Positions 19,883 through 61,778 of a stretch of DNA of 64,000 nucleotides are shown one piece after another; position 1 is the stretch's first letter, and every line of letters begins with the position of its first letter. The position numbers were made by a program, and so were the translations under genes. Where the stretch lies: contig CAIVEI010000169.1 of assembly GCA_903904835.1 (NCBI GenBank), positions 1 to 64,000 of the forward strand, read 5' to 3'. Source of the DNA: an uncultured Schlesneria sp. (lineage in GTDB: Bacteria; Planctomycetota; Planctomycetia; Planctomycetales; Planctomycetaceae). The notes under the pieces were generated by a model. That model had not been told where the DNA came from. It made no database searches and saw only the letters and a list, made by a program, of their open reading frames with translations.

Positions 19883-20653
19883 CACGAACTGCAAAACAGT
19901 CCGCGTTTCCGATACACAGTTTTTATCGATGTCGGTGGCATAGCATCTCGGACTTCCTGAATGAAAACAAAGGGGACCCCTTTTCTTCGCGAAGAAGTGG
20001 AAGTTCATCTGGCGAAACTCAAACTCGGCGACGTGGCCGCCAAAAACATCTGAGCGACTGTCGAGCTCGGTTGCGTCTCTCGCAACCCGAGCCCCTTAAC
20101 GCCGTGTGATTGACATCGCGGACACGCGTCCGATGACGTCGGACCTTATCACACATTTATCATCAATTGCGACAGGAAATCCCGCATTCTCTCCAACGAC
20201 AAAAGCACATAACGACACCAACAGTGCAACCGAGTGCCGAACAGTATTGGACCTGTCCCCGCATGGCAGCTTTTCTTCGTCCAACTTGGATGCTTTGCGC
20301 CTTGGGGAAATCTCCTAAAATCCACGAAGGTGCTCAACGACCACGAAGGCAGAATGGGACTTATGGGACCAATTGTTGAGGAGTCCATTCGTCGCGAAAG
20401 TGCTCAACGGTCGCGAAGGTGCTCGGCAACGGTTGAAGAGATCGGCTGAACGCCGATCGGCCTGCGCCGCTGGCTGCGGGTTAAACGATATACTTATCGC
20501 CAGTCCTTGGTGCCAGTGTGTTTGGTATCCAAAAGGAGATGCGCGATCCATCGAACGAATCGACTTCTGTTAGTTTTTAAGGCACAAACGTGTATCATCC
20601 AATGATCGCGTTTGTCGACGTCATCCGCATTGGCGAGCCGAGGAATCTATTCA
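19883..20653. other. Intergenic 770 bp, no gene recognised
   Basis: Holds a second stem-loop near 20070-20090 (GGTTGCG ... CGCAACC) and two related short direct repeats near 20328 and 20399 (GTGCTCAACG followed by CGAAGG). A 30-codon frame at 19961-20053 has no support. The segment before 20654 contains GAGGAA as ribosome site for the TIR-STAND gene. Confidence 0.5.
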
Positions 20654-23600
20654 ATGTCATTCGCAAGTTTTCATGTATTCCTGTCCCACAATAGCGCCGA
20701 TAAACCGGCGGTTGAAGAACTTGCGCGGCGGTTGAAAGCAGACGGGATTGAACCCTGGCTCGACAAGTGGCATCTTGTTCCAGGCAAGCCGTGGCAAGCT
20801 GCGCTGGAACAGGCACTGGCAGATTCCTTGTCGGTCGCCGTCTTCGTCGGTCCGAGTGGAATCAGTCCGTGGCAAGACGAAGAAATGCGGGCAGCCATCT
20901 CGAAACGCGTTCGTCAGAGGGATAATGAATTTCGAGTCATTCCCATTTTACTTCCGGGAGGGACGCGGGAAGAACGAAGCCGATTACCTGAGTTTCTACT
21001 CGCTTCGACCTGGGTGGAATTCCGCAAATCACTCGACGAAGAAGAGGCGTATCATCGCTTGAAAAGCGGTGTTCTCGGCGTGGCTCCCGGGTTGCCGCCG
21101 GGTGCGGCGATCTTTGAAGGGGAATGTCCGTACCGAGGACTCCAGGCGTTTCAGCCGGAACACTCAGCTTTCTTTTTCGGCCGCGAAGCACGAATCGAAT
21201 GGCTGCTGAACGCATTGCGTCCCGCACAGTCTTTCGACAGATCGGGGACCCCACGAGAAAATCGCTTCCTGGCGATTGTCGGTGCCTCAGGCAGCGGAAA
21301 GTCGTCGCTCGCGCGGGCTGGGTTAGTTCCCGCCCTGCGAAATGGAAAGCTTGACGGCAGTGCCAATTGGCCAATCCTCATCTGCCGGCCAGGACATGAT
21401 CCATTGGAAAGTCTGGCCGTCGCGCTTGCGGGTGATTCTCTGATCGGATCGCGGGTTGGCGATGTCGGTCATCTGATTTCGCAAATGGCCACAGACGAGA
21501 CACGATTGCATCTGGCTGTTCGCGTTGCACTTGCAGGTGTTGAGGAATCTCAACGAGTCGTCGTGCTCGTCGATCAGTTCGAAGAGGTGTTCACTCTGCA
21601 TTCCGACGACGCGTCCAAGTCTCGATCCAGCCGTTCTTTCGTTAACTTTTCCCAGATGAACGCAGCAGACGATCATCGGAAGGCGTTTATCGATAACCTG
21701 ATTTACGCTGCGGGCATACCGGGGGGAAAAGTCATCGTTGTACTGACGATGCGAGCAGATTTTTACGGGAAATGCGCGCTGCATCGCCATCTGGCCGCAG
21801 CCATCACCGACCACCAGGAACTGGTTGGCCCCATGTCATCGGACGAACTGCGCGAGGTGATCGAGCGTCCGGCTCAATTGGTCGGGCTGGAACTCGAGCC
21901 CGGTCTGACAGAAATGCTGTTGAACGAAATGGAAGATCAAGCTGGGGCGTTGCCCCTTTTGCAACATGCGTTATGGGAACTGTGGCAACGGCGTGAAGGA
22001 CGACGATTGACGATCGGGGCCTACAAGGCGATTGGGGGACTGGAAGGGGCGCTCGAACAACAGGCAAATTCGATCTACGAACAAATGAATAGCGCCGAGA
22101 AAGAGACCTGCCGTCGAGTCTTTCTTCGATTGACGCAACCGGGAGAAGGCAGCGAAGACACCAAACGACGAGTGCCGATGAACCAGTTGGGTGATCCCGT
22201 GTTAATCTCGTCCGTGATTAACCGGCTAACGAACGTCAGGTTGATCACGACCGAGAAGGATTCGTTTGTCGAAGTTTCGCATGAAGCGCTAATTCGATCC
22301 TGGACCAAACTACGAAGCTGGATCGAAGGTGATCGAGAAGCGCTCAGAACTCAACATCGTCTGACGGAAGCGGCTGCTGAATGGATCGGGTCTGGTCATA
22401 ATCAAGGATATCTTTATCAAGGGGCAAGACTGGCAGAGGCCGATGAATGGTCCAACACACCGGAAGCCGACTTAACGTATGATGAGCGCCAGTTCCTTGA
22501 CGCGAGCCTGGAGCAACGCGACCGAGTCAAACGTGAAGAAGCGGAGCGTCAGGCTCGCGAAGTCCAAACCTTGAAGAAGCTTGCCGAAAGTGAAACAGAG
22601 CGGGCGAGCGAACAGGCGCGCGCCGCGCAGCGTTCGAAATGGCAATCGCTGGCGGCGATGGCGCTGGCCGCTATGGCACTGGCCGCCTTCGTCTGGGCCG
22701 CCAAAGCCCAGCGTGAAGCCGTTGCAAATGCCAGTAAGGCAGAAGCAAACGCCCGTCAGACGGAAGAGGCTCGACAAAAAATCGAAGAGACTCTTGCTGA
22801 CAACCTGATCGAACGAATTCACGATTTTCCAGGGGACTTTGGCCACAACGAATCTGAGGCTCTCTGGCAGATCGCCGGGTTAACTTCGGAACACGAGCCG
22901 CTACGTCGAGAAATCCTGTCCTTAGCATTTTCGAATGACGGTCATGCGGTGCGGCTGATTAATCGGGGAGGCTTAGTGGCTCGGGCGCTCATTGGCTTTG
23001 ATGAAAAACGACGCCAGTTTGCACTGGACGACTCAATCATGCCGATACTGAAAAACCCTTCTGCTACATCGAACGAGCGACTGGCTGCGGTCCGGATGGG
23101 GTTGGCGCTCAACGTTGAAGGAATCGAGTTTGCTGAGTTCGCTGTTCGTACACTATCAAGTGAAATAATTCGGTATCGCGACAATGAATTGCTGGATAAG
23201 TTGTCCGCTGATTTGAACACAGCGATTCGCTCAATCCCATTCTCGGAATCGCAGCGGGCCGTCGATCCAATCATCAATGCCATCCAGCAAACCCGTGATC
23301 CACGAATTTTACAGAAGCTTTGCGACGCTGTCGGCGAATTGCCAGGTCAAATGACTCCAGCCGACGTGCTGCGCGTTTCCGATCAATTGCTTCACGTGAT
23401 GGAACACGAGAAGCGACCGGATTTGATTCGCGAATTAAGTGAAAGTCTTGTCTCGCTTCCTAAAAATCTGAATGTCATTAACCCCGCGCGCGGAATCAAA
23501 TACATCGTTCAGGCGATCGAAAACACGAAACGGACCGAGGTCCGTAATAGCCTTGTTGAGACGATTAGATCCTGGTGCGCGCGATTAGTGCCAGATGACT

Positions 23601-25498
23601 TTAAAGTGACTGAAGTCGAAATTCTGCAAGCCGTTAAGGGAGCCCAGGATTCGGAAACCATGAGTGTTTTTGCTCGATGTCTGACGGTCGTAGCCGTCCA
23701 TCATTCTCAGTCAGACAGTCAACAGGCGACCAACGTGCTCCTCGAAGCCATGCAGTTGGTAGAAGAGTCAGATCCGCTTTACGAATTGAGTAAGGGCCTG
23801 GGTCAATTGAATGGCAAGATCTCTGAAAACGCCGGTCACTCGGCGATCGCCAGGATCTTAAAGGTGATGGCGAACGAGGATTCCAGCAGGGGTTTACGTC
23901 TCTTCGCTGAAAGTCTTTGTGCTATACCAGTCCAGATGACTGATATGGAAAATGCCGAAGCCACCAGGATTCTACTGTCCTGTATCGGAAATAGTGCAAC
24001 GCTTCCTCTCGATCTTTACCAGTTATCGAACGGGCTTTCGACTTTACCGAAACCGTTTTCGACGACTGACGGCCAGCAAGTATTCGATTCACTATTTAGT
24101 TCGCTCGATCGATTTGAACGAGCCTACATGATTCATAAAATTCAAGAAAGTATGCAGGCAGTCGGAGGCAAGTTGGATGCACCAGCCGCCGATGTGGTCG
24201 CCGAAGAAATCTGTAAAAGGATGGAGTCTTGCACAGACGCAGAAAAAGTACGGGCCTTAGCTTACGGACTTCGGGGGATGGAAAGAGTTGTTGACTCGGC
24301 TAAGATCAAAAAAGCGTATGAGATTGTCAGGGACAAAATCCATCACGAGGCGTTTGAAGCGCCCATTGAGCTGAGTCTCCTCGCGGAAACTCTCTCCATC
24401 ATTCCCGAAAACATTCCTGAAAGTATTGCCGAGGACGTCCTCGAACGAATGCTCGCGGTTCTCGTCTCGACCGAAAATTCCGAGATCGTTCAACTGATCG
24501 TCGAAAAAATCGGATTTGTCGGTGGAGATATCTCGAAAGAGGTTGGGCAAAAAGCGGTACAGCGAATTCTTAACAAAATTAAAAGCACCAAAGAATCGTC
24601 CTTGTTGCGAGTCCTCAGTCTCGGACTGGCGTCGGTCGTGATCGAGTTAGATCGTAAAAATAAGTTCACAGAAAATGATGCCGCAGAAGTGGCCCATTAT
24701 CTTGCCATGACGATGGATGTTTCAGACAGTCCCGATGTCCTGATCCCCCTTGGACAAGCGATGGAAAAGGTCGCTCCGAAACTGTCAAAAAACGGTGATC
24801 AAGCCATTGTCAGACAGGTCATTGAACAAAATCTGAGATCGATTCAGGGGACCCAGTCACCTCGGGTTATTGGACAATTGGCGCGAATCTGGCAAGTGAT
24901 GGCGCCGCAGATGACCGGACAAGAAACACAAGAAGCGTTCGAGCAAATCCTGACATCAAACAGGGCTTTGGCAAACGTTGTCGCCCGGCCCGCCCTATGT
25001 CAGGCCGCCGTTGCCCTGGCCATGGCTTCCGATAAATCTCAGGCGAATCAGGCACTTGAGTATCTTCTCTCGGCGCTGGATAGAGATCATGATCCGGAAG
25101 TGTTGAAAATCATGCTGGATGGCGTCGAAGAACTTGCTAACCGCGTTCCAGCAAGCGATGTCAAACGGGCCAAATCAGCGATCCTGGCCACGACGGGCGA
25201 TCAGGTCCGAACCAATGAACAGATTTTGAATCGATTGATTAAAGCGCTTGGAAAGTTGCCCGGCGGTTTTGATGTGGCCGAGTCGGTAGAACTGCTGAAG
25301 TCACCGTTCTGTATTGGCTCGGCCCAACAGACACTATTGAGGATGATCGAGACTAAGACCAAACTCAGTTTCAATGGCAACCCTTGGAAGCTAGTCACTT
25401 CCGCAGAAAAAGCGGGAATTGATCCGAAGACCTTCAAACAGCCAGCAATTTGTCCGCAAAAATTAAAACTGAATCTGCCGCGTGTTGCGGCTCCGTAA
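20654..25498 (+). CDS. TIR-STAND (nSTAND1-type) NTPase with membrane segment and C-terminal helical repeats
   Basis: 1614 residues. The ATG at 20654 (SFASFHVFLSHNSADK) has GAGGAA upstream. Residues 1-150 form a TIR domain (FLSHNSADK, EPWLDKWHLVPGKPW, SPWQDEEM). Residues about 165-640 form a STAND NTPase: entry motif CPYRGLQAFQPEHSAFFFGRE, Walker A GASGSGKSS (G210-S218), Walker B VVVLVDQFEEVF and a winged-helix part ending VSHEALIRSWTKLRSWI. A coiled coil, one membrane helix (MALAAMALAAFVWAA, about 662-684) and another coiled coil follow. Residues about 800-1590 are helical repeats of roughly 45-55 residues, HEAT-like, instead of the WD40 or TPR sensors often found. Such proteins act as threshold switches in immunity or signalling. 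The acidic residues common in NADase TIRs near D-E-W-E are K-W-H here, so NAD cleavage is uncertain. No partner gene is adjacent. Confidence 0.92.
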   Translation: MSFASFHVFLSHNSADKPAVEELARRLKADGIEPWLDKWHLVPGKPWQAALEQALADSLSVAVFVGPSGISPWQDEEMRAAISKRVRQRDNEFRVIPILLPGGTREERSRLPEFLLASTWVEFRKSLDEEEAYHRLKSGVLGVAPGLPPGAAIFEGECPYRGLQAFQPEHSAFFFGREARIEWLLNALRPAQSFDRSGTPRENRFLAIVGASGSGKSSLARAGLVPALRNGKLDGSANWPILICRPGHDPLESLAVALAGDSLIGSRVGDVGHLISQMATDETRLHLAVRVALAGVEESQRVVVLVDQFEEVFTLHSDDASKSRSSRSFVNFSQMNAADDHRKAFIDNLIYAAGIPGGKVIVVLTMRADFYGKCALHRHLAAAITDHQELVGPMSSDELREVIERPAQLVGLELEPGLTEMLLNEMEDQAGALPLLQHALWELWQRREGRRLTIGAYKAIGGLEGALEQQANSIYEQMNSAEKETCRRVFLRLTQPGEGSEDTKRRVPMNQLGDPVLISSVINRLTNVRLITTEKDSFVEVSHEALIRSWTKLRSWIEGDREALRTQHRLTEAAAEWIGSGHNQGYLYQGARLAEADEWSNTPEADLTYDERQFLDASLEQRDRVKREEAERQAREVQTLKKLAESETERASEQARAAQRSKWQSLAAMALAAMALAAFVWAAKAQREAVANASKAEANARQTEEARQKIEETLADNLIERIHDFPGDFGHNESEALWQIAGLTSEHEPLRREILSLAFSNDGHAVRLINRGGLVARALIGFDEKRRQFALDDSIMPILKNPSATSNERLAAVRMGLALNVEGIEFAEFAVRTLSSEIIRYRDNELLDKLSADLNTAIRSIPFSESQRAVDPIINAIQQTRDPRILQKLCDAVGELPGQMTPADVLRVSDQLLHVMEHEKRPDLIRELSESLVSLPKNLNVINPARGIKYIVQAIENTKRTEVRNSLVETIRSWCARLVPDDFKVTEVEILQAVKGAQDSETMSVFARCLTVVAVHHSQSDSQQATNVLLEAMQLVEESDPLYELSKGLGQLNGKISENAGHSAIARILKVMANEDSSRGLRLFAESLCAIPVQMTDMENAEATRILLSCIGNSATLPLDLYQLSNGLSTLPKPFSTTDGQQVFDSLFSSLDRFERAYMIHKIQESMQAVGGKLDAPAADVVAEEICKRMESCTDAEKVRALAYGLRGMERVVDSAKIKKAYEIVRDKIHHEAFEAPIELSLLAETLSIIPENIPESIAEDVLERMLAVLVSTENSEIVQLIVEKIGFVGGDISKEVGQKAVQRILNKIKSTKESSLLRVLSLGLASVVIELDRKNKFTENDAAEVAHYLAMTMDVSDSPDVLIPLGQAMEKVAPKLSKNGDQAIVRQVIEQNLRSIQGTQSPRVIGQLARIWQVMAPQMTGQETQEAFEQILTSNRALANVVARPALCQAAVALAMASDKSQANQALEYLLSALDRDHDPEVLKIMLDGVEELANRVPASDVKRAKSAILATTGDQVRTNEQILNRLIKALGKLPGGFDVAESVELLKSPFCIGSAQQTLLRMIETKTKLSFNGNPWKLVTSAEKAGIDPKTFKQPAICPQKLKLNLPRVAAP

Positions 25499-26868: not shown

Positions 26869-27402
26869 CAAACTCTCCACGCTTCAATACGCCTGCAAAC
26901 CAAAGGGGGATTTGGAAATTCGGACCTGCCGCAGATCCGAAACATTTGATCGGAACGGAATAGCAAGCAACTCTCACAAATCACGCAAAATCACTTCATA
27001 CCACGCAAGTTACCCAGAGTTACGGAGTGGGAGTTGACTCAATAAGTCACGTTTCCTTTTCGCTTCGCCGAGAAGTTGTGCCGAATTGCCATTTTCCGAG
27101 TGATCCAACGGGGCTTTCAAGTTCCATCCGAGGTCTGTTTCAATTCGGCAATCCTCTTGGCGGAGCGAAATGGCGACATTGTCTGATGCGAAGCCTCCTT
27201 GGGCTACTTCGACAAGGACGCGTATTCTGGCTTGATTGCATGAAATGTCTCAACATCGTTAACCATCAACGTTTTCAGATCGATTGGACGCGTCGATTGA
27301 AACGCACTGTGATTCGGGTTATGAATTAAAACACGTTTGTGGTCGACGTTTTGCCAGCGACCATCCGCGATTTCGATACTACAGCCGACCGAGGGGCCAA
27401 TC
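26869..27402. promoter_or_regulatory. Shared upstream region of the FadL and lipoxygenase genes
   Basis: 534 bp between divergent starts. No gene is supported. The ribosome sites of both genes lie at its ends (GGAGAG on the minus side, GAGGGG on the plus side). No operator or strong promoter is obvious by eye. Confidence 0.4.
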
Positions 27403-29193
27403 ATGTCTGCGTTCTTGCCACAGCCTGCGCCGCGATTACCTCAGGGAGAATCTTTTTGGGGCGGACTGTACCGCAGTTCCAAATTGTACGTAGACCGTAG
27501 GCTTTATCAGTACGATTACACGCATGTTTCGCCGCTGGCCATCATGAAACATGTGCCAATCACAGACGATTTCTCGCTCAGTTGGTTGAAGGTTTGCGGT
27601 AAGCAAGTGCTCGAAGTGCTTGAAAATCGCGCGAAATTAGACTTGAGTGAACTCCGTACGGTGGAAGCGACGACCGTCCTCAACAAGATTCGTAATGTAT
27701 TTGAGAACGATATCCATGCGATTGCGGATATTCGCAGCCACATCACTGAAATATTGAAATTTGAATCACGAATCGGGGCTGATCCCAATCCAGCTCAATC
27801 GTTGGCGGATTACGCCGACCTTTTCCGCTCGTATGGGTTACCCCCTATTGCCAAAGATTTTGCAGAAGATCGGGTCTTTGCCGCGATGCGGACTGCCGGT
27901 CCGAACCCTGTCATGCTCAAACGCTTGAAGACGCTCGACGAGCGATTGCCGATTACGAACGAAATTTTCTGTGAAGGGATTGCGAACGATTCGCTCGACG
28001 CGGCGCTGGCTGAGGGCCGATTGTATCTGGCCGATTATGCACTGTTAGACGGAGCGGAACTGGGGAACTTTCCAAACGGACAGAAGTATCTTTACGCGCC
28101 GCTGGCCCTGTTCGTCATCACGGGACCATCGAAAGAATTGCTGCCAGTCGCAATTCAATGTCAGCAGAAACCTGATCCTCACTTCAATCCGATCTTCACA
28201 CCGAAAGACGGATACAACTGGTTGATCGCAAAAACGATTGTCGAAACGGCCGACGGTAATATTCACGAAGCGTCAACCCATCTGGGACGAACGCATTTGA
28301 CAATGGAAGCGTTCGTTGTTTCCTCGTATCGCCATCTGGCGGATCGACATCCGCTGGCATTGTTATTGTGGCCTCACTTCGAAGGAACGCTGGCGATCAA
28401 CAAAGCGTCATGGCAACACCTGATCGCCGACAAAGGGGGTGTCGACAAATTAATGGGTGGATCGATTCAGACTTCTCGAAAAGTGGCCGTTCACGGCGTT
28501 CAAAGTACCCGTGTTATGAACGATTTGCTGCCGCTGACGTTCGCACAACGGGGCGTCGATGACCACGATGCATTTCCTGTTTACCCATACCGTGACGACG
28601 CTTCGATGTATTGGGAAGCGATCCACGAGTGGGTCAGTTCTTACCTGAAATTGTATTACCCGAATAATACCGAGATTCAGAAAGACAAAGAATTGCAGGC
28701 ATGGTGCCGCGAACTGGCATCTGACAACGGCGGTCGAGTCAAGGGCCTGCCCAACGATGGTCAAATCCAGACAATCGAAGAACTGATCGAAGTCGCGACG
28801 TTTATCGTCTATACCTGCAGTGTCCAGCATGCGGCAGTGAATTTCCCTCAGTACGACTTGATGAGCTATGCTCCGAACATGCCATTGGCAGGGTATCGAC
28901 CAGCTCCCACGAAAAAGTCCGGTGGGACTGAAGCCGATTTCATTGCGATGCTTCCAACGCTCGATATGGCCGAACTGCAAATGGAACTGGGCTGTCTTCT
29001 CGGGAACGTTCACTATACTCAGCTTGGAGAGTATGCCTCAAATCAGTTCGTTGATGGCCGTGTTGCTGCCCCGCTGAAACAGTTTCAGAACCGGATCGCA
29101 GACATAGGCAAGAAAATCGCTGAACGCAATACAAAACGTCGTCCTTATGAGACGCTTGCGCCTGGTGGTATCCCTCAAAGTATCAATATCTGA
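27403..29193 (+). CDS. Lipoxygenase
   Basis: 596 residues. The ATG at 27403 has GAGGGG at good spacing. Non-heme iron dioxygenase that adds O2 to polyunsaturated fatty acids. All iron ligands are visible: H293 and H298 in THLGRTHLTMEAF, H476 and N480 in CSVQHAAVNFPQYD, and the C-terminal isoleucine (GGIPQSINI, I596). HPLALLLWPHFEGTLAIN is the usual helix that follows. There is no signal peptide and no N-terminal PLAT domain, as in several bacterial members. Bacterial lipoxygenases are uncommon, and one next to a FadL porin suggests use of imported or membrane-derived unsaturated lipid. Confidence 0.95.
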   Translation: MSAFLPQPAPRLPQGESFWGGLYRSSKLYVDRRLYQYDYTHVSPLAIMKHVPITDDFSLSWLKVCGKQVLEVLENRAKLDLSELRTVEATTVLNKIRNVFENDIHAIADIRSHITEILKFESRIGADPNPAQSLADYADLFRSYGLPPIAKDFAEDRVFAAMRTAGPNPVMLKRLKTLDERLPITNEIFCEGIANDSLDAALAEGRLYLADYALLDGAELGNFPNGQKYLYAPLALFVITGPSKELLPVAIQCQQKPDPHFNPIFTPKDGYNWLIAKTIVETADGNIHEASTHLGRTHLTMEAFVVSSYRHLADRHPLALLLWPHFEGTLAINKASWQHLIADKGGVDKLMGGSIQTSRKVAVHGVQSTRVMNDLLPLTFAQRGVDDHDAFPVYPYRDDASMYWEAIHEWVSSYLKLYYPNNTEIQKDKELQAWCRELASDNGGRVKGLPNDGQIQTIEELIEVATFIVYTCSVQHAAVNFPQYDLMSYAPNMPLAGYRPAPTKKSGGTEADFIAMLPTLDMAELQMELGCLLGNVHYTQLGEYASNQFVDGRVAAPLKQFQNRIADIGKKIAERNTKRRPYETLAPGGIPQSINI

Positions 29194-35353: not shown

Positions 35354-35731
35354 ATGAACCGAATTCATTTACGGCGTATTGCCCTGTTGTCTGTCATATC
35401 AGTGGGCGGAATTGTGGGATGTGGTCAAGCGAGAAGCTATGCACTGAATACCGACCTGGCTCAAGCGTCTGTGGAAGAAGCGATGCAGGCCTGGGTTGAT
35501 GGGGCGAAGCCAGAAGACCTGAAGCCAAATATCATTGTGGGCGATACCGAATGGAGTCAAGGCAAGAAATTAGCCTCGTTTGAGATACTTGAGGATGACG
35601 CCACAACAGATGGTTCAAATCTTCACATCCGAGTGAAACGCAAGTTTCGCGGCGAACGAGGGGCATCCGAATCGACAATGAAATACATCGTCAGTACATC
35701 ACCTGCCATTACCATTTTCCCTCAACAATAG
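35354..35731 (+). CDS. Small lipoprotein following DUF1559
   Basis: 125 residues. Signal peptide with lipobox VGGIVGCG, lipidation expected on the cysteine. The mature part is a compact alpha/beta domain (ASVEEAMQAWVDGAKPEDL, then KLASFEILEDD, HIRVKRKFRG) ending in a beta strand. Such lipoproteins often accompany DUF1559 genes. Its stop is only nine bases from the next start, so it is also likely co-transcribed with the CMD-like gene. Confidence 0.85.
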   Translation: MNRIHLRRIALLSVISVGGIVGCGQARSYALNTDLAQASVEEAMQAWVDGAKPEDLKPNIIVGDTEWSQGKKLASFEILEDDATTDGSNLHIRVKRKFRGERGASESTMKYIVSTSPAITIFPQQ

Positions 35732-35740
35732 AGGTCTTTC

Positions 35741-37069
35741 ATGTTTAAAAATTACTGGAATCTTTGTCTTTTATTCTCGCTTGTCTGTCTGTCGAATTTG
35801 TATTCCCAGACTGGTCCAGCCTCGACGCGACCAGAAATGAAGCAGCGAATTGAAGCGTTAAAACAGCGAATATCGCGATTGCCGCTCCCCGCACCGACCG
35901 AACAGGAAATTGCGTCCGGCCGATCGCTCGTCAACAATGGTCGATTGCGATCGATCTACCTGCCGTCCTCATGGCAGTCGTTTGTCATTTCCGGTTGGGG
36001 AGGTGGTTCTTCAAAACGCCCGGCTGGTGGGACGGCGGCAACGCTCAAGGGACTCGAGGCCGATCCGAGCTATGGGTTCAAAACGCGGCTGTTCTGGATC
36101 GTTTCTCGCGCGAATGATTGTCAGTATTGTCTGGGTCATCAGGAGCTGAAGCTGAAGCGAGTCGGTATGACCGACGACCAGATCGCGTCGTTAGATTCCC
36201 GCTGGAATTTGTTCCCGCCTAATGAGCAGGCCGCGATGAAAGCCACTCGCAAGCTGACCGTGACACCGCAGCAGTTTTCTGAACAGGACATCGCCGAACT
36301 GAAACAGTATTACAGCGATGCCGAGATCATCGATATCATCTATACCGTCAGTCGATATAACGCCGTCAACCGCTGGACCTCGTCCACCGGAATACCTCAG
36401 GATCAGTCGTTCGGTGGAACGGAACACAGCGTACTGAACACTCCGACCTCAGCCGAATTCGCAAGTGTTCCGTCAAAAGTGATTCCCATCGACAGCAAGC
36501 CAAGATCCGAATGGGAGAAACGGGAACAGTTCGAAGCCGCACTCCAGGCCGCTCGTATGCGATCCCCGGTTGTTGAACTTCCCTCGGTTGAAGTTGCCAC
36601 AAGCATTCTCGCCAGGGATTGTCCCGGTGTCACGCCACCCGTGTGGTTTCAAGCGATGTCCAACCTGTCTGTTGCGCTGGATGCGTGGGGACAAAGGCAA
36701 GCCATGGCTCGTGAGGGGAAGACAACGCCGGACCTGCGAATCTTGATCGCGTGGGTCAGTGCTCGTGAAAACCGAGCCTGGTATGCAGCAGGACACGCAC
36801 GAACGCGATACAGAGCCTCTGGCGGTGATGATGCCGTCTTGTATTCGTTTGCTGATCTCGAAAATGCGGCTACCACTCCCGGGCAGGCCGAAGCATTACG
36901 ATTTGCTCGTAAGCTGACCTCGGCACCGCATACGATCATCGATGAAGACATTACTCGTCTTAAGCAGCACTTCACCGATTTCGAAGTGGCCGAGATCATC
37001 CAATTGACCTGTGATGCGAACGCTTTTGATCGTTTCACGGAAGCCCTTCGGTTACCACTTGAGATTTAG
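35741..37069 (+). CDS. Secreted two-domain AhpD/carboxymuconolactone-decarboxylase-like protein (A)
   Basis: 442 residues with a signal peptide (LCLLFSLVCLSNLYS). Domain 1 carries the AhpD motif C-x2-C-x2-H: C127, C130 and H133 in NDCQYCLGHQELKL, preceded by FKTRLFWIVSRA. Domain 2 (about 250-440) has the same layout, but the motif reads ENRAWYAAGHARTRY, with both cysteines lost. AhpD-type domains reduce peroxides or disulfides through the cysteine pair. Here one active and one degenerate copy alternate. Paralogue of the gene at 41225. Probably periplasmic or extracytoplasmic. Confidence 0.85.
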   Translation: MFKNYWNLCLLFSLVCLSNLYSQTGPASTRPEMKQRIEALKQRISRLPLPAPTEQEIASGRSLVNNGRLRSIYLPSSWQSFVISGWGGGSSKRPAGGTAATLKGLEADPSYGFKTRLFWIVSRANDCQYCLGHQELKLKRVGMTDDQIASLDSRWNLFPPNEQAAMKATRKLTVTPQQFSEQDIAELKQYYSDAEIIDIIYTVSRYNAVNRWTSSTGIPQDQSFGGTEHSVLNTPTSAEFASVPSKVIPIDSKPRSEWEKREQFEAALQAARMRSPVVELPSVEVATSILARDCPGVTPPVWFQAMSNLSVALDAWGQRQAMAREGKTTPDLRILIAWVSARENRAWYAAGHARTRYRASGGDDAVLYSFADLENAATTPGQAEALRFARKLTSAPHTIIDEDITRLKQHFTDFEVAEIIQLTCDANAFDRFTEALRLPLEI

Positions 37070-37109
37070 CACCTTTAAGGACTTTACCGTCCGTTCTAAG
37101 GATTCATCG

Positions 37110-38324
37110 ATGAAGATTAATCGATCTCTCTTAATTGGGTGTCTCGCTATGGTTTCCACGTTCGCCACTTCGAGCCTTTCTGCGGACGACAATGTTCAGG
37201 CCAAAAGTCACGATGAAAAGAAGGCTGCCGTTGAGTATTCAGTGGGGCCGGAACTCGAAAACGTTCCCGTCGAGGATATCGAAAAAGCCTACGAAGGAAG
37301 GACCCCGCCTGAAGCAATTCGAATGTATTTGGCGATTGTGAAGGGATCGATGATGGGGGCCGGTGATGGATGGTTCGGTCCGGCTGAGTCGAGATACGAC
37401 TGGGATTGGCTGGCGAAGCGACATGAGATTGATCCAGGCGGTGAAATCGAATCAAAAAAGTTCCAGGGAACCGCTGCATTGTTTGAGCAACTCGATCGCA
37501 ATCGAGACGGAAAAATCACGGCCGACGACCTGAATTGGTCTGAACGCAATCCGTGGGTTCAGCAGTCATCGATGGTAAACAGGCTGTTTCGCAGAATCGA
37601 CCCGAATGGGGATGGAAGACTGGCTCGTGAAGAGTGGCTTGCATTTTTCGACAGGGCTTCGGGTGGTAAGGATGAATTGACTGCTGAAGAACTGCGAAAC
37701 GCCTTGCTGGGAGGGCCTTCGGGCTTTACTCCGGGCGACGCACCATCGAAAGAGATCCTTTTACAGGGGTTGTTCGCAGGCGAGGTTGGATCGTTGCAAG
37801 AAGGCCCCAAGGTCAATGATCCGGCACCCGGCTTCACGCTCAAGACACAGGATGGCAAGCAAACAATTCGACTGGCCGATGTCATCGGTACGAAACCTGT
37901 CGTGGTCGTGTTCGGCAACTTTACTTGTGGACCATTTCGTTCGATGTACCAGGGTGTCGAAGACGTGTATCGTAGATTCAAGGACGATGCTGTCTTCCTC
38001 GGCGTTTACGTCCGCGAGGCCCATCCGACCGACGGCTGGAAAATGGACTCGAACGCAAAAGTTGGCGTGAGTGTTGTCCAACCCAAAACTTATGACCAGC
38101 GGACTGCCGTCGCAAGTCAATGTCACGCGCTCTTAAAGCCGTCGATCCCGTTGCTGGTGGACGAGATCGACGATCCTACAGGTAACGCTTACAGCGGTAT
38201 GCCCGCCCGCTTATACGTGATTGATCGTGCGGGCCGCGTGGTTTACAAGAGTGGCCGTGGTCCATTTGGCTTTAAAACGGGCGAAATGGAACAAGCCTTA
38301 GTCATGACGTTAATCGACAAATAA
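37110..38324 (+). CDS. Secreted EF-hand / deiodinase-like thioredoxin-fold protein
   Basis: 404 residues; the ATG at 37110 follows AAGGA and opens a signal peptide (LLIGCLAMVSTFATSSLSA). Two EF-hand loops are visible: DRNRDGKITADD (about 128-139) and DPNGDGRLAREE (about 164-175), so calcium binding is expected. The C-terminal domain (from about 235) is thioredoxin-like of the iodothyronine-deiodinase kind: VVVVFGNFTCGPFRSMYQ, then VFLGVYVREAHPTDGW and PLLVDEIDDPTGNAYSGMPAR. C273 stands where deiodinases carry selenocysteine. Bacterial relatives likely act on peroxides or thiols, not thyroid hormone. It sits 40 bases after one CMD gene and before two others. Confidence 0.88.
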   Translation: MKINRSLLIGCLAMVSTFATSSLSADDNVQAKSHDEKKAAVEYSVGPELENVPVEDIEKAYEGRTPPEAIRMYLAIVKGSMMGAGDGWFGPAESRYDWDWLAKRHEIDPGGEIESKKFQGTAALFEQLDRNRDGKITADDLNWSERNPWVQQSSMVNRLFRRIDPNGDGRLAREEWLAFFDRASGGKDELTAEELRNALLGGPSGFTPGDAPSKEILLQGLFAGEVGSLQEGPKVNDPAPGFTLKTQDGKQTIRLADVIGTKPVVVVFGNFTCGPFRSMYQGVEDVYRRFKDDAVFLGVYVREAHPTDGWKMDSNAKVGVSVVQPKTYDQRTAVASQCHALLKPSIPLLVDEIDDPTGNAYSGMPARLYVIDRAGRVVYKSGRGPFGFKTGEMEQALVMTLIDK

Positions 38325-38457
38325 CCGAATGGCGATCCCTTGAATTCGAAGACGACCGCGAGTTCTGAGAAGTAGCGGAGTGAAACCTCGGCGCCAACCA
38401 AGATATCGCCCTGATGTTACGATCGCGATTACTAATCGTTTTGGAGTTTTTAACTCG

Positions 38458-41133
38458 ATGAAAGACAATGCTGCTACCTCAGGAATCAAGATTGGCACTG
38501 CGGCAACGGCTGTATTCGATGAAGCAGAAGCGAGGTTTCCCGTGCCGACTGATGCCGAAGCATGGCAACGTCTGCGGACGGCAACCAAAGGAAGCGGTCA
38601 GCCATTGCCAACCTGGGCGAAAATGCTCGCTTTCGAATTACCAAAGAGCGCCGCAGCGTTTCTTGAACTTGACCTTGCACAGAGGACAAAAAGCCCGGTT
38701 GCACCAGGTCTGCGGGCGGCCATGCGTTGGGTTTCGGCACACGCCAATCGTTGTGGTTATGCCGAAGCCTACGCCGCAGCCGACGCACGACGTGCAGGAG
38801 TCGACGAGGTTCATATCACTGCACTGGGGCGTGACGGCTACCCGGGATGGTCGAATGATGACCGGGCCGCGCTGGAGTTTGCACGCAAAATGTCGGTCGA
38901 TTCGGATTCGGTTACCGACGACGAGTTCGCTGGTTTGGTCAAGCATTTTGGCCAGAAACAGGCGGCTTCAATGGTTCTGTTATTGGCCTATTCGAATTTT
39001 CAGGATCGATTTCTGCTTTGCTTAAACGCACCGTTAGAACCGGGTGGTCCGCTGCCACCGATCGATGTGGCGTTTGCTCCCGAATCGTACGTGACGAAAA
39101 CAACTCCGCCACCTCCGTTAAAAAAGTCTCCCCTCCCCAAGCCAACCGGCACGGACCTGATTGAGGACGATCCAGAATGGAAATTACTCTCATACGAGAA
39201 ACTCCAGGACCGGCTCGAAGCTCAACGACAAAAGCCGACTCGCTTGCCGATTCCGTCTTGGGACGAGGTGAGTCGAAATCTTCCTGAAGGGTTGATCAAA
39301 AAACCAAGCGACATCATCTGGTATCGAATCGTTTTCGGTTATGCACCAGAGTTGGCGGTTCCATTCGAAGTCTTCATGAGAACCGCTGGTGCTGAGGCGA
39401 GTCCGAAATGGGATCGAATCTTTGGACAAAGCTTGTTCTGGGTCACGACGCGCGCAGTGCAGTGTCCGTATTGTATGGGGCATTGCGAGATGAACTGGGA
39501 AGTGGCAGGCCTGACCAAGTCAGAAATTGCGGAACGAAGCAGCCTGCTTGCGAGTGATGACTGGTCCAGCTTCACCCCCGCCGAGCAGCATGCGTTCGCA
39601 TTCGCTCGCAAGTTGACTCGCACCCCTTGGCAGGTTTCGAACGCAGACGTCGCGGAACTCAACCACGATTTCGGTACGGACAAAGCAATCATCGTCATGC
39701 TCAATGCCTGTCGATACCACTACATGACGCGGATCTCGAATGGGTTCCAGTTGACACTCGAACGAGAAAACGTGTTTTACGACTACTACAACGTCAAAAC
39801 GCCGATCGCAGCGCCGTCGTTAACACCGACCGACACCGCGGTGGCGTTGTTGACTAACGCGGAAACCTGGAAGCGGTTGCCTGAGACCATCTCAGGAGGC
39901 GGCGTAGAACTTCCCAATTGGGTTCGCGCTGTCGCTTCACAGCTACCAAGGACGGCTGCTGCCATGCTGCAGCTCGACTTTGCCCAACGGACTCAAAGCC
40001 CGCTCGACCCAATTTTGCGAGGCAAGATGCGATGGGTCGTCGCTCATGCCAATCGTTGTGCCTATTCGGAAGCATACGCCCTCGCGGATCTCGAACGAGC
40101 AGGGCTCGACGCGGCTTCCCGTCAGAAGCTGGTCGGCGATCCATCCTCGTGGCCAACTGAAGATCGAGATCCGTTAGAATTTGCGAGACTCCTGACGGTC
40201 GCTGCTCCAACGATTCGCGATGAACTCTTTGAGTCATTGAAAAATCGATTCGGCGACAAACGAGTTGCGGCGATGGTCCTGCTGGCGGCGTATGGCAACT
40301 TTCAAGATCGGATTGTCCTGGGATTGAATCTTCCTATCGAAGAGCATGGTCCTCTTGCGCCGCTTCCCGTGACGTTCGTTGAATCGGCATTTCAAATCGC
40401 GTCAATAATGCCAGCGCAGACCAATACCACGGCCCTTGTCGAATCGGGCAAGAAGGTCGTTGATGACGATCAGGAATGGTCCCGACTCACTTATGACGAA
40501 CTCCAATCGCGCCTGGAAAAACAGCGCCACCGGAAACCACGGCTTCCGATACCTGTCTGGGACGATGTGAAGAAAAATCTTCCTGCAGCAATGGCCGCCC
40601 GGCCCACTCGCATCGTCTGGAACCTGGTTTGTTCGGGATATGTCCCGGAACTTGCCGTCCCCTGGGGTATTTCTACGAGGACAATGTGGGCTGAAACAAA
40701 GCCCGATCGAATCTTCGAAGAAAGTCTGTTCTGGATTCAGACGCGCAGCATCGAATGTAATTACTGTATGGGGCATTGCGAGATGCTGCTGGAAGTCGCA
40801 GGACTCAACAAGAATGCCGTGGCAGACCGGACCCGACGACTGGCCAGTTCCGACTGGTCCTCGTTTCCACCGGATGAGCAACGTGCTTACGCTTATGCTC
40901 GAAAGTTGAGTAAGACACCGTGGGAACTGACTTCTGCTGATTACCATACGCTTGAAAAGGATCTTGGTCCTGACAAAGCCATGGCCACATTCTGGTGGCT
41001 CTGTCGAGGCCTCTATATGACTCGCATCTCTGACGGATTTCAGTTGCCTCTGGAAACAGAAAACGTCTTTCAAAGTCCTCCGACACCCGCCGCAAACGGG
41101 GAAGCTTCCGCAGCGGAAACGAAGTCGAAATAG
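38458..41133 (+). CDS. Four-domain AhpD/CMD-like protein with internal duplication
   Basis: 891 residues from the ATG at 38458 (GGAG twelve bases upstream); no signal peptide is seen. The chain is a duplicated pair of AhpD-like domains. Domains 2 and 4 carry the full motif: CPYCMGHCEM (C336) and CNYCMGHCEM (C767). Domains 1 and 3 keep a single cysteine in AHANRCGYAEAY and AHANRCAYSEAY. The halves are about 430 residues each and align throughout (LPKSAAAFLELDLAQRT and LPRTAAAMLQLDFAQRT). Each half also repeats a linker ending LPIPxWDxVxxNLP. Possibly the cytoplasmic partner of the secreted paralogues, unless the upstream frame from 38380 provides an unrecognised export signal. Confidence 0.85.
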   Translation: MKDNAATSGIKIGTAATAVFDEAEARFPVPTDAEAWQRLRTATKGSGQPLPTWAKMLAFELPKSAAAFLELDLAQRTKSPVAPGLRAAMRWVSAHANRCGYAEAYAAADARRAGVDEVHITALGRDGYPGWSNDDRAALEFARKMSVDSDSVTDDEFAGLVKHFGQKQAASMVLLLAYSNFQDRFLLCLNAPLEPGGPLPPIDVAFAPESYVTKTTPPPPLKKSPLPKPTGTDLIEDDPEWKLLSYEKLQDRLEAQRQKPTRLPIPSWDEVSRNLPEGLIKKPSDIIWYRIVFGYAPELAVPFEVFMRTAGAEASPKWDRIFGQSLFWVTTRAVQCPYCMGHCEMNWEVAGLTKSEIAERSSLLASDDWSSFTPAEQHAFAFARKLTRTPWQVSNADVAELNHDFGTDKAIIVMLNACRYHYMTRISNGFQLTLERENVFYDYYNVKTPIAAPSLTPTDTAVALLTNAETWKRLPETISGGGVELPNWVRAVASQLPRTAAAMLQLDFAQRTQSPLDPILRGKMRWVVAHANRCAYSEAYALADLERAGLDAASRQKLVGDPSSWPTEDRDPLEFARLLTVAAPTIRDELFESLKNRFGDKRVAAMVLLAAYGNFQDRIVLGLNLPIEEHGPLAPLPVTFVESAFQIASIMPAQTNTTALVESGKKVVDDDQEWSRLTYDELQSRLEKQRHRKPRLPIPVWDDVKKNLPAAMAARPTRIVWNLVCSGYVPELAVPWGISTRTMWAETKPDRIFEESLFWIQTRSIECNYCMGHCEMLLEVAGLNKNAVADRTRRLASSDWSSFPPDEQRAYAYARKLSKTPWELTSADYHTLEKDLGPDKAMATFWWLCRGLYMTRISDGFQLPLETENVFQSPPTPAANGEASAAETKSK

Positions 41134-41224
41134 ATAACGAGGCTTTATCTCATACTGTTCCCTGAATCCGGAACTGCGGGTATCAGGGATACTGGTTCTA
41201 GTTCAATTCTCAAGGAACTCTCAA

Positions 41225-42676
41225 ATGAAACAACCACTCCCACTGTTCTCGATCGGCCTCTTTTTAGCGTCAGCAGGCATTGCGCTGGGTATTGATTCCA
41301 AATCCACGCCGAGGCCGGTACCTCTGACTCGGCCGGAAATGAAAGAGTATTTAGAGGACATGAAGGTTCGTAAACCTCGCATACCTCTTCCCGAGTTAAC
41401 AGCAGAAGACAAAGAGAAACTTGGTGAACGGGGATCGGGCTACGAGGCCCGCCTGCGATATCATTATCTTCCCGCAGGTGAAGCGCGGGCAGGGGGTGGA
41501 GCGACGCCGGGAACCGCTCGGGCAGGGGGTGGTGGAGGTGGCTTTGGCGGAGGTCGTGATAACGATCCTGATATGACATTGAGCTACAAATTCAAAGTCG
41601 AATTATTCTGGATCGTCTCCCGAACCAATAACTGTCAGTACTGCCTGGGACATCAGGAATCCAAACTGCTTGCTGCTGGAATGGTCGAAGATGAAATTGC
41701 CGCGCTGGACAGCGATTGGTCCGCATTTCCTCAAGCAGAACAAGCCGCGTTTGCCTTCGCCAGAAAATTCACGTTTGAACCGCATCAATTATGTGATGCC
41801 GACATTGATCAACTTCGCAAAGACTACACCGATCTGCAGATCCTTGAGATGATCCTGTCAATGGCCGGGAACAACTCGATCAATCGTTGGAAAGAGGGAG
41901 CGGGGATCCCCCAGTCGCAAAACGGTGGCGGGTTTGGTCGACGACCTGAGGTCGGACAAACCGCGACGTCTCAACCTGCTTCAACGCCACAAGTGCCCGA
42001 ATCCTACCTGACACCGACTGCCGACCGATTTCAAACCCGAGTGACACGCGTTGCACCATTGGCCATCGATCAAAAGTCCGGCGAGCCGACTCGGCGAACG
42101 GTCTTTCAGCGTCCGGCGCTGGAATCCCGCGAAGAAGTCAAACGGACACTTCTTGCAGCACATCAGCGAACGCCCCGACTGCCGCTAGTCGATGAAACAA
42201 AGGCTCGCGAAGTCTTGCCGGACAACTGGCCTCAGGGATCGCTGCCTCAATGGGTGCGATTGCTTGCCAATTTCCCGAGTAGTGCCAAGGCTCGCATCTC
42301 CAGCATTCGTTCTGCCGAAGAACGAGGTGATCTTTCCCGGCTGCTGAAAGCCCAGGTCAGTTGGATCATCGCTCGTCAGGACCGCGCATGGTACGCCGCA
42401 GGTCGTGCACAACAGCGATTGCGAGAACTTGGTCAATCAGACGATCAGATTTATCAATTGGACGGTGATTGGAAAGAGTTCACAGCGACAGAACGCTCAT
42501 TGTTCACCGTCGCGCAACGACTTGCGGCCACTCCCGTGATCCTGACGGATGACGACGTGGACGACGCGGTCAAGCTCGCCGGTCCTCGGGACGTCGTCCA
42601 GTTGATCAGCTATATCACAAACTGCGCTTCCTTCGATCGAATCACGGAAGCAACCGGTCTGGCCTTGGAAAATTGA
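41225..42676 (+). CDS. Secreted two-domain AhpD/CMD-like protein (B)
   Basis: 483 residues; the ATG at 41225 follows AAGGAAC. Signal peptide LPLFSIGLFLASAGIALG. A glycine-rich insert (about 87-113) is absent from paralogue A. Domain 1 has C137, C140 and H143 in NNCQYCLGHQESKL after FKVELFWIVSR; domain 2 has DRAWYAAGRAQQRL with both cysteines and the histidine replaced. Same active-then-degenerate order as paralogue A. Last gene of the run; the next gene is convergent. Confidence 0.85.
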   Translation: MKQPLPLFSIGLFLASAGIALGIDSKSTPRPVPLTRPEMKEYLEDMKVRKPRIPLPELTAEDKEKLGERGSGYEARLRYHYLPAGEARAGGGATPGTARAGGGGGGFGGGRDNDPDMTLSYKFKVELFWIVSRTNNCQYCLGHQESKLLAAGMVEDEIAALDSDWSAFPQAEQAAFAFARKFTFEPHQLCDADIDQLRKDYTDLQILEMILSMAGNNSINRWKEGAGIPQSQNGGGFGRRPEVGQTATSQPASTPQVPESYLTPTADRFQTRVTRVAPLAIDQKSGEPTRRTVFQRPALESREEVKRTLLAAHQRTPRLPLVDETKAREVLPDNWPQGSLPQWVRLLANFPSSAKARISSIRSAEERGDLSRLLKAQVSWIIARQDRAWYAAGRAQQRLRELGQSDDQIYQLDGDWKEFTATERSLFTVAQRLAATPVILTDDDVDDAVKLAGPRDVVQLISYITNCASFDRITEATGLALEN

Positions 42677-46191: not shown

Positions 46192-47097
46192 ATGCCCGAT
46201 TCGTCGCCACTCAACACGATTCAACGCTGGTTACAGGCGGTCATAACGCACCCGGAGGGGGTCCGTGCGGGTGTCGATTCACCCACCGCCAGAGATCTGG
46301 TCCAGGTCACTCAAGCTGATGTCGAGCGAATCATCCTCCCATCCCGCGAAATGACCAGCCTCGACCGATTGCAGATTTATGGTCGAGCGTACTTCGGGAG
46401 ATTGCTCGAATGCCTGGCGGCTCAATTTCCTGCCGTGCAACACGTCGTTGGCGAAGACGCATTCAACGGACTCGCGTTCGGTTATCTGGTCGATCATCCG
46501 TCAAAATCATACTCCCTTTCCACGCTTGGCAATTCTTTTGACCAGTATCTGACTGTGACAAGACCCCCGCGATCTGACGAAGCTGATTCTGATCAGCCAG
46601 ATTTTGCCGACTTTCTGATCGAACTGGCTCGGTTGGAACGGGTCTATGCTGAAGTCTTCGACGGACCAGGACCAGAGCGTTTACCCACACTGAATGTCAG
46701 TGAATTAGCTGGACTGTCACCCCAGCAGTTTGCCAACTCACGCATGGGATTTCATTCGTGTGTCAGACTGCTGGAACTTCGATTTCCGGTCCACGAATAT
46801 GCGACGTCTATCCGTCGCGGGTTAGAGCCAACCCCTCCCGTCTCACGTCCGATTTACCTGGTGGTCACTCGCCGAGACTACATCGTCCGTCGGTTCGAAG
46901 TCACCAAACCACAGTTTCGGCTGCTGACATCGCTGATGAATAGCGAAACCGTCGGCGCAGCACTGATACAAGTGCTCACTGAACCGACGGCCGACGTAGC
47001 AACGTTGCAGACGGACCTGCAATCATGGTTTCGCGACTGGTCAGCGGCACCGTTGTTCGCTGAGTTGATTCACGACTTTCCAGATATGACGAAGTAG
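46192..47097 (+). CDS. DUF2063 (HvfC/BufC-type) protein
   Basis: 301 residues. The N-terminal domain matches the DUF2063 DNA-binding-like family: IQRWLQAVITHPEGV, then RLQIYGRAYFGRLLECLAAQFPAVQHVVG and LSTLGNSFDQYL. These proteins are the usual partners of DUF692 enzymes (MbnB/BufB) in making copper-binding or other oxazolone/thioamide peptides, where they help bind the precursor. A DUF692 gene is in this window but 14.7 kb away (61775-62704). No short Cys-rich precursor peptide gene was recognised near either. Confidence 0.85.
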   Translation: MPDSSPLNTIQRWLQAVITHPEGVRAGVDSPTARDLVQVTQADVERIILPSREMTSLDRLQIYGRAYFGRLLECLAAQFPAVQHVVGEDAFNGLAFGYLVDHPSKSYSLSTLGNSFDQYLTVTRPPRSDEADSDQPDFADFLIELARLERVYAEVFDGPGPERLPTLNVSELAGLSPQQFANSRMGFHSCVRLLELRFPVHEYATSIRRGLEPTPPVSRPIYLVVTRRDYIVRRFEVTKPQFRLLTSLMNSETVGAALIQVLTEPTADVATLQTDLQSWFRDWSAAPLFAELIHDFPDMTK

Positions 47098-60281: not shown

Positions 60282-60530
60282 CTGTTCGATCGCCTCAGTT
60301 TCAGGGTTCGAAGAAAAACGTCGAACCACCGCCGCATGGTGGAATCATGCGACTGGAATCAGGTTGGACTGGTCGTAATTCAATGTGGTTGACTACGAAT
60401 AACACAGTTCAAGCGATTCCCGCAACCCATTGGTATTGATCACCGTGATCCGACTTCGTCTTGTGATCGTTGATACATCTCCCATACGATGTTTGATACT
60501 TGTGAGTTCCTTTTATTGCAGGAAGCAGCC

Positions 60531-61778
60531 ATGCAGTGTCTGATCGTAAAGCCATACCGCTTTTGCAAAAGCAGGGATCGGCAGCCGGATCGTGAATCTT
60601 CATGCAAAGGCGATTTGAATACGTTAAAGGTCGTTTCTGTCGTCCCTTCTGCATTGAAGTTCAGCATTGTGCTTGGGTCGTTGCTGGTCAGCAATCTCGC
60701 CGTGGGACAGGTTCCGACAAGGCCAGTGCGACCGGGTGATTCTTCTCAGATGAAAGAGAAGACTGCATCAACTAAGAAAACGACGACGATCAATACGGTG
60801 ATCGAGTTTGAATTGTTGCAGGCCGAAGGCGGTGGGGGAATGTACGGACAGCAATGGTTAAAAGTCCTGGAGCCTCTGGACGTTTCACTTCGAGTTCGCA
60901 AGCCCATATTGGGTGACAAGCCAGAAATGAAGGAACGAGAAGCAGGCAAAACTCGATACGTGACAGCAATTGGTACGTTGGATCGCTCTGGAAATCTCGT
61001 GTTCCCTGATCGATCCTTCGCCCTCAGTGATGCGACGAAACTCAAAGAGTGGGTCAACGAATTACGGACTTTCGGGATCAAGGGAACGCCAGTCGGAAAA
61101 TCGTTATGGGGATTAAGTGAAGATCAATTCGCCACCCTGTTCGATGGCTTACTCAAAAAAGTGGACTTTGAAACGGAAAATCTGCCGTTGAAGCAGGTCG
61201 TGACGAAGCTACCTCTTCCGACAGAGTTTCCAGTACGTTGGAATTCCGACGCGGTTGAGCAACTCGCTAAGCTCGGGGATAAGGCTCGTGTCAGACAGAA
61301 GCTGAAAGGATTCAGTGCGGCGATAGCGCTTGCGTTATCATTGAGCGACAACGGTTTCGGTTTTCGGCCAAACAGAACTCCTTCGGGAGTCATCGAGCTT
61401 TTAATCGAGCCACGAAATACGAAGCTCGACCAATGGCCAATTGGTTGGCCTGTACAGAGAGCCACTTTTAAAGCAGCACCGAAGCTGTACGCCATGGTTC
61501 CGATCGAACTATCGGATGTCGAACTGTCGGATGTTCTGACGGCCATATCGGAACTGGCAGAAACCCCGATCCTGATCGACTATGCGGAATTGGAAGCGAA
61601 GAAAATCGATCTGGAAAAAATCAAAGTTTCATTCCCTCTTAAAATGACCACATGGAGCCTTGCGCTTCGCCAGCTTGTTGTTCCCAAGCGATTGACTCGT
61701 GAGCTTTGGCAGGACGAAGCAGGGCGAGTATTTGTCTGGATTACAACAACGCGAGCCGGTCGCGCGAAGGATGAATGA
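60531..61778 (+). CDS. Secreted or membrane-anchored protein of unknown function, upstream of DUF692
   Basis: 415 residues from the ATG at 60531 (AGGAAG upstream). A signal or anchor lies unusually far in, at about residues 25-50 ([18 protein letters not shown]). Near the C-terminus [26 protein letters not shown] followed by [20 protein letters not shown] resembles the short N-terminal domain of secretins and TonB receptors. The centre is helical and has no recognised domain. Its stop overlaps the DUF692 start (ATGA), so the two are co-translated. Confidence 0.7.

Follow-up and report, generated by a model that had tools for sequence, protein, structure and literature searches.

To our knowledge, neither a function nor a partner has been assigned to the deiodinase-like selenoproteins of bacteria in the twenty years since they became known, and it is unclear how the two-domain AhpD architecture of sestrins arose. 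In mycobacteria, AhpC is re-reduced by AhpD. Selenocysteine (Sec) forms of bacterial deiodinase-like proteins (family NF038285) have been on record since the Sargasso Sea survey (PMC1088965), and several surveys (PMC1088965, PMC2398784, PMC13188914) include Sec forms among the deiodinase-like, AhpD-like and CMD proteins that they catalogue. Operons joining peroxiredoxin (Prx)-like and AhpD-like selenoproteins (PMC13188914) resemble the genes treated here in pairing a thioredoxin (Trx) fold with an AhpD-like protein and in using Sec in both; however, the partner in those operons is Prx-like rather than a deiodinase, and fusion, EF-hands and a sestrin-like tandem are not described there. Here we present the computational analysis of a run of five genes, A to E, on a 64,000-nucleotide stretch of DNA from an uncultured Schlesneria sp., a planctomycete of the peat-bog type (contig CAIVEI010000169.1, positions 1 to 64,000; hereafter the window), in which a deiodinase-type protein stands among tandem CMD proteins. 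Across planctomycetes the genes of the two protein types are conserved neighbours or are fused to encode a single chain, and Sec forms of both exist. We put at about even the chance that the run constitutes a cysteine-only planctomycete redox module, in which a deiodinase-type Trx-fold protein with EF-hands works together with sestrin-like tandem CMD proteins.

The window belongs to an 8.18 Mb planctomycete assembly that is 99.97% complete, and the closest named relatives of its deiodinase gene are found in uncultured Schlesneria metagenome-assembled genomes at about 90% identity. All five genes lie consecutively on the plus strand. The run is opened by A (35354–35731), a small lipoprotein of 125 residues with the lipobox VGCG, followed after a gap of 9 nucleotides by B (35741–37069), an exported tandem CMD protein that exceeds the cut-off of the 'peroxidase-related' model TIGR01926 with 83.6 bits. 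C (37110–38324), also exported, joins a pair of EF-hands to a deiodinase-type Trx-fold domain; D, which begins at 38380 (GTG) or 38458 (ATG) and ends at 41133, contains four CMD domains; and E (41225–42676) is an exported tandem CMD protein of the close family of B. In Pfam and NCBIfam, CMD/TIGR01926 was matched by B, D and E, T4_deiodinase (PF00837), the EF-hands and NF038285 were matched by C, and A found no family match. The coordinates and profile matches thus agree with the first-pass annotation of this DNA, which had described four plus-strand CMD/redoxin genes with eight AhpD-like domains and a lipoprotein nine nucleotides upstream. Within the host genome the tandem CMD family is confined to this run, bar one weak single-domain match, and A has one paralogue elsewhere. 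Promoter and terminator scans of the run gave no more than shuffle-level signals and hence no evidence for an operon.

The eight CMD domains of B, D and E are mutually alignable, every pair being significant in sequence searches, and they are of two kinds: active (the first domains of B and E, the second and fourth of D) and degenerate (the second domains of B and E, the first and third of D). Domain order is accordingly opposite in the two protein types, active-degenerate in B and E and degenerate-active, twice over, in D. The active site of the first domain in both B and E reads CQYCLGH (C127-Q-Y129-C130-L-G-H133 in B; C137-Q-Y-C140-L-G-H143 in E), while their second domains carry RAWYAAG, with no cysteine at the site. 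In D, numbered from the ATG at 38458, the degenerate first and third domains retain a single cysteine each (CGYAEAY and CAYSEAY), and the active second and fourth domains read CPYCMGHC (C336-P-Y-C339-M-G-H-C343) and CNYCMGHC (C767-N-Y-C770-M-G-H-C774). The active-site pattern obtained by alignment is exactly the one that had been claimed for the run.

The association of the deiodinase-type gene with CMD genes was assessed by running window-derived profiles over about 20 kb around the deiodinase genes of other genomes, 80 named planctomycete loci being counted. CMD genes of the window family occur at 47 of the 80 and never lie more than 3 kb from the deiodinase; at 46 of those 47 loci all CMD domains lie on the deiodinase strand, and a homologue of lipoprotein A is present at 26 of the 80. 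Among 198 genomes drawn evenly from the class, a deiodinase was found in 49 of the 55 genomes with a degenerate-active CMD protein against 24 of the 143 without one (Fisher p 1.4e-21), and in 32 of the 49 co-occurring genomes the two genes are at most 3 kb apart. The conserved synteny across Planctomycetota that the first reading of the sequence had anticipated is thereby borne out. Moreover, EF-hands, deiodinase, degenerate CMD and active CMD domains form one stop-free open reading frame in at least 24 records, a count from which fusions needing read-through of a non-catalytic TGA were left out, and such direct fusions lend support to the proposed thiol-redox partnership. A fusion in the reverse, CMD-deiodinase order (L070/L133) was rejected, the domains being separated by two non-catalytic TGA stops, and the putative fusions L098/L130 and L069/L148 are likewise interrupted by stops. 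Besides the lipoprotein, no further conserved partner gene stood out around the 80 loci; open reading frames resembling ASPIC/UnbV and DUF1501 proteins, named by eye without a scan, lie at about 10 of them and are not in the window.

A second line of evidence comes from selenocysteine. In relatives, a TGA codon stands exactly at the codon of the window's catalytic cysteine, so that the deiodinase site reads FGSFT-U-GPF and the active CMD site CFY-U-MGH; in the window the corresponding alignment columns fall on the plus-strand codons of C273 in C (37926–37928), C339 in domain 2 of D (39472–39474) and C770 in domain 4 of D (40765–40767). Such a TGA was observed in 15 of 125 distinct active CMD domains and 15 of 101 deiodinase domains, as compared with one other TGA within about 40,000 domain codons. 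Because the genome with that lone codon (L105, genome G142) has no SelA, the codon represents either an error or an ordinary stop. Four fusions (L147, L167, L172 and L199) have a TGA at both catalytic sites of a single chain. L147 and L172 are in addition dense selenoprotein clusters, in which three successive TGA-Sec sites are distributed over an EF-hand–deiodinase(U)–degenerate–active(U) fusion, a lipoprotein and a degenerate-active(U) protein. Degenerate-active CMD genes, many of them with TGA, were also noted in genomes in which no deiodinase was detected (L102 of G130, and G185, G201, G252 and G262).

The TGA codons are accompanied by RNA hairpins, resembling a selenocysteine insertion sequence (SECIS), at fixed positions on their 3' side. 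In the deiodinase gene a perfect seven-pair stem is present in all 14 Sec genes and in none of 86 Cys genes, and it is maintained by compensatory changes in L094 and L095; in the CMD gene a hairpin with a six-pair stem and the loop GGUC occurs in 14 of 15 Sec genes versus 1 of 110 Cys genes. This fixed-stem test is the informative one, rather than a general comparison of minimum free energies downstream of the TGA, which differed weakly (p 0.02). Every first-set genome whose catalytic TGA was verified has SelA, and SelB matches over the cut-off follow a similar pattern. In the second set, for which TGA-bearing genomes were counted without codon-by-codon confirmation of the catalytic position, SelA was present in 30 of 32 TGA-bearing and 3 of 17 TGA-free genomes, and the two TGA-bearing genomes lacking it are assemblies that are not fully complete. 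Chance or assembly artefact as the source of the TGA codons is ruled out by their placement at catalytic sites, the fixed hairpins and the distribution of SelA. On the tree, the Sec deiodinases require only three changes of state. By the usual marks of a selenoprotein, namely an in-frame TGA, a SECIS element and SelA/SelB, the relatives qualify and the window does not; SelA gave no match in the window genome, and the run therefore represents the cysteine version of a pair in which other planctomycetes employ Sec.

Structural comparison extends the picture to the CMD proteins. B and the second half of D were modelled with confidence by AlphaFold2, at predicted local distance difference test (pLDDT) scores of 89.7 and 91.2, and the AhpD helical core that had been expected was predicted for intact and degenerate domains alike and agreed with PDB structures. 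For both models the best PDB match was human Sestrin2, aligned across the whole domain pair (Z 24.7, about 285 residues and about 3 Å for B; Z 25.3, 296 residues and 3.7 Å for the half of D), followed by single-domain AhpD-like proteins and the debrominase Bmp8. Sestrin2 itself has been described as a pseudo-twofold pair in which the N-domain is an alkylhydroperoxidase and the C-domain is non-catalytic (PMC4674687), and the sestrin structures (5dj4, 5t0n, 5cuf) thus share with the window proteins a pseudo-symmetric chain of an active and a degenerate AhpD-like domain (Z about 25 over about 290 residues). Both tandem types are accordingly predicted by the models as sestrin-like pseudo-dimers, one per domain pair. 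This is consistent with the catalytic and non-catalytic pairing put forward in the first-pass annotation, whose pseudo-trimeric assembly gave way in the models to two-domain pseudo-dimers. The likeness has its bounds, for unlike Sestrin2 the window proteins are bacterial and exported, retain a full CxYC dyad instead of a single cysteine (the sestrin family trait of a second cysteine replaced by leucine is absent from their active domains, in which both dyad cysteines are kept), share only about 13% identity with it and, in D, reverse the domain order. In Pfam the sestrin family was not matched and CMD alone was.

Details of the active sites point away from AhpD and towards Bmp8. AhpD of M. tuberculosis (1gu9, 1knc) and TIGR01926 enzymes (2ijc, 2prr, 6k40) share the CMD fold and a CxxC dyad with the window proteins, and the site of 2PRR comprises Cys86, Tyr88, Cys89 and His93 (PMC4674687). 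The AhpD relay, however, consists of a histidine at C+4 and a glutamate at C-12, whereas in all four active CMD domains of the window the histidine stands three residues after the second cysteine (CxYCxxH) and the glutamate is present in domain 4 of D alone. This spacing fits Bmp8 (CxYCxxH) better than AhpD (CxYCxxxH). The active domain of D finds its best PDB sequence match in Bmp8 (E 3.8e-8), with which it shares the CMD fold and whose site, GCMYCKSH, aligns with it without gaps (6ohi), and entry 6ohj is a C82A mutant with bound tribromopyrrole. Bmp8, whose reaction is the reductive debromination of tetrabromopyrrole, differs from the window proteins in being single-domain with a pyrrole substrate, and the sequence similarity is weak. 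Chekan et al. (2019) reportedly likened its mechanism to that of thyroid deiodinase.

Protein C matches NF038285 with 536 bits against a curated cut-off of 250 and PF00837 at 3e-26, and among PDB sequences it matches iodothyronine deiodinases (Dio), namely Dio3 at 7e-29 and Dio2 at 7e-27. Its EF-hand loops lie at about residues 129–140 and 164–175. The putative nucleophile is C273 in FGNFTCGPF, an instance of the FGxxT(U/C)xPF pattern; the alignment column of C273 is invariant, and the YVREAHPTDGW loop is retained: Y300, E303, H305 and W310 correspond to Tyr157, Glu160, His162 and Trp167 of Dio2, and the threonine is likewise conserved, the roles of the loop network in Dio having been described (PMC11592359). 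The likeness to Dio1–3 (PF00837; 4tr3, 9h48) therefore covers the nucleophile position, the YxxEAHPxDGW loop and the YKxGRGP end motif; in contrast to Dio, C is exported, fused to EF-hands and has cysteine for Sec, and its family is coupled or fused to CMD domains. The peroxiredoxin (AhpC/TSA) motif PxxxTxxC is not present in C, whose site reads VFGNFTCGPF, and no CxxC was found in its Trx-fold domain. A distal cysteine in a later segment, C338 in the window, is kept in 97 of 98 deiodinase-family domains. We claim no membership of these proteins in the deiodinases, AhpD or the sestrins as enzymes, nor a reductive deiodination of iodothyronines by C.

If the run works as a single redox module, the following sequence of steps can be envisaged. 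Outside the cytoplasm, the thiolate of C273 (Sec in relatives) would attack an electrophilic atom of an organic substrate, either a halogen or, in a hydroperoxide, the peroxide oxygen. The resulting sulfenyl intermediate would be resolved by the distal C338, and the CxYCxxH dithiol of an active CMD domain may then take over the disulfide and re-reduce C, in the way that AhpD serves AhpC in mycobacteria, or may itself directly reduce substrates of that class. Within each pair, the degenerate CMD domain would stabilise the pseudo-dimer and shape its pocket, and calcium bound by the EF-hands might make the secreted enzyme more stable or gate it. The substrate appears about equally likely to be a halogenated aromatic or an organic hydroperoxide: the former is favoured because of the Dio loop and the Bmp8-like spacing, the latter because of general base rates, the match to TIGR01926 and the sestrin-like fold, and the details of the active site would tip the choice slightly towards reductive dehalogenation.

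Several observations weigh against this scheme. Two Dio relay residues are changed in C, Ser127 to Asn270 and His182 to Pro325, the former column being Ser in Sec relatives and the latter an invariant Pro across the family. The proximal cysteine by which Dio1 is resolved (PMC9141512) is absent from C, nothing was found near the run that would serve as a dedicated reductant of the CMD dithiols, and substrate-bound Bmp8 is mutated at its first cysteine (C82A), the Sec of the relatives being at the second position. Export is uneven as well. The secreted set comprises B, C and E, whose signal peptides were recognised by inspection; in D of the window and of its closest kin the signal peptide is poor or has been lost. 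At its N-terminus (38380–38520) the signal peptide is lost in the window's Schlesneria sub-clade and clear in L087, L102, L104 and L109, and since D orthologues and the fused deiodinase-CMD forms appear exported too, export of D could be presumed only by homology to its orthologues. Lastly, about 40% of the deiodinase loci have no CMD gene within 3 kb, although some of the contigs are short, and 6 of the 55 genomes with a degenerate-active CMD protein lack a deiodinase. The partnership is consequently not obligatory, and at least one independent role must fall to the CMD pair, because degenerate-active CMD genes occur where no deiodinase was found.

The strongest competitor, which we consider possible though somewhat unlikely, is a hydroperoxide defence in which the deiodinase-type and CMD proteins act as separate, co-regulated alkyl hydroperoxide reductases of the envelope with no electron transfer between them, comparable to AhpC and AhpD homologues with overlapping substrates. 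The position of B above the 'peroxidase-related' cut-off, the sestrin-like fold of both tandem types (Sestrin2 being a proven alkylhydroperoxidase, PMC4674687) and the presence of a lipoxygenase gene, which provides a source of lipid hydroperoxides, at 6 kb upstream here and in the closest relatives of the window would all suit it. Single-chain fusion speaks instead for direct cooperation, the deiodinase-type site lacks PxxxTxxC and retains the Dio loop, the AhpD-type relay histidine has shifted from C+4 to C+3, and the lipoxygenase is found in only 4 of 8 same-genus genomes whereas the D family is in 8 of 8. A bolder and rather doubtful extension of the redox module holds that the EF-hand–deiodinase–degenerate–active proteins, with up to two Sec per chain, would be new cobalamin-free extracytoplasmic reductive dehalogenases in which the sestrin-like CMD pair passes electrons to the deiodinase domain, the window run being an all-cysteine, unfused relative. 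It is quite improbable that the proteins form an envelope thiol-disulfide system, a Dsb-like repair or isomerisation of oxidised thiols in secreted proteins without any small-molecule substrate; exported Trx-fold and CxYC proteins would be in keeping with such a role, and bacteria commonly have Sec forms of Trx-like and Dsb-like proteins (PMC13188914), but the Trx-fold domain lacks CxxC, and the Dio proton-relay loop and the Sec nucleophile suggest electrophilic small-molecule chemistry. Plain gene duplication beside an unrelated redoxin, with no functional meaning in the neighbourhood, could account for the duplicated CMD proteins of the window and the many deiodinase loci without them, and is nevertheless largely refuted, and most improbable, in the face of conserved linkage, fusions and parallel Sec use over several families of the class.

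The protein families concerned are already known; their combination we found nowhere described. The first-pass annotation had known of no pathway of such composition, and in the open-access literature, to which our search was mostly confined, no paper was found that links deiodinase-like and CMD proteins, reports their fusion or treats planctomycete sestrin-like tandems. In a repeatedly fused pair with Sec or Cys as catalytic residues and matching hairpins, the bacterial deiodinases gain a physical partner and, with it, a reaction that can be tested directly. Should the substrate be a halogenated organic compound, the pair would represent a new dehalogenation route in planctomycetes of peat, groundwater and lakes; should it be a hydroperoxide, a new sestrin-built antioxidant system of the envelope.

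Other genes of the window deserve brief mention. The lipoxygenase gene upstream of the run (27337–29193, plus strand) matches PF00305 at 1.7e-56. Lipoxygenase genes are rare in bacteria. In three of the four same-genus genomes that carry it, the gene is on the contig of the cluster. Since only 4 of the 8 genomes tested have it, its proximity probably reflects local synteny, and reading the function of the run from it was set aside as weak. Further upstream, a 1628-residue protein with TIR and nSTAND1 domains (20612–25498, plus strand) is a candidate signalling or anti-phage STAND protein. Near the far end of the window, an enzyme of the MbnB/TglH/ChrH type (61775–62704, plus strand; 5e-109), of the kind that modifies ribosomally synthesised and post-translationally modified peptides (RiPPs), belongs to a stretch of two open reading frames (60489–62704) and is overlapped by 4 nucleotides by a 429-residue frame without Pfam match; a DUF2063 protein (46192–47097) lies 13 kb from this pair.

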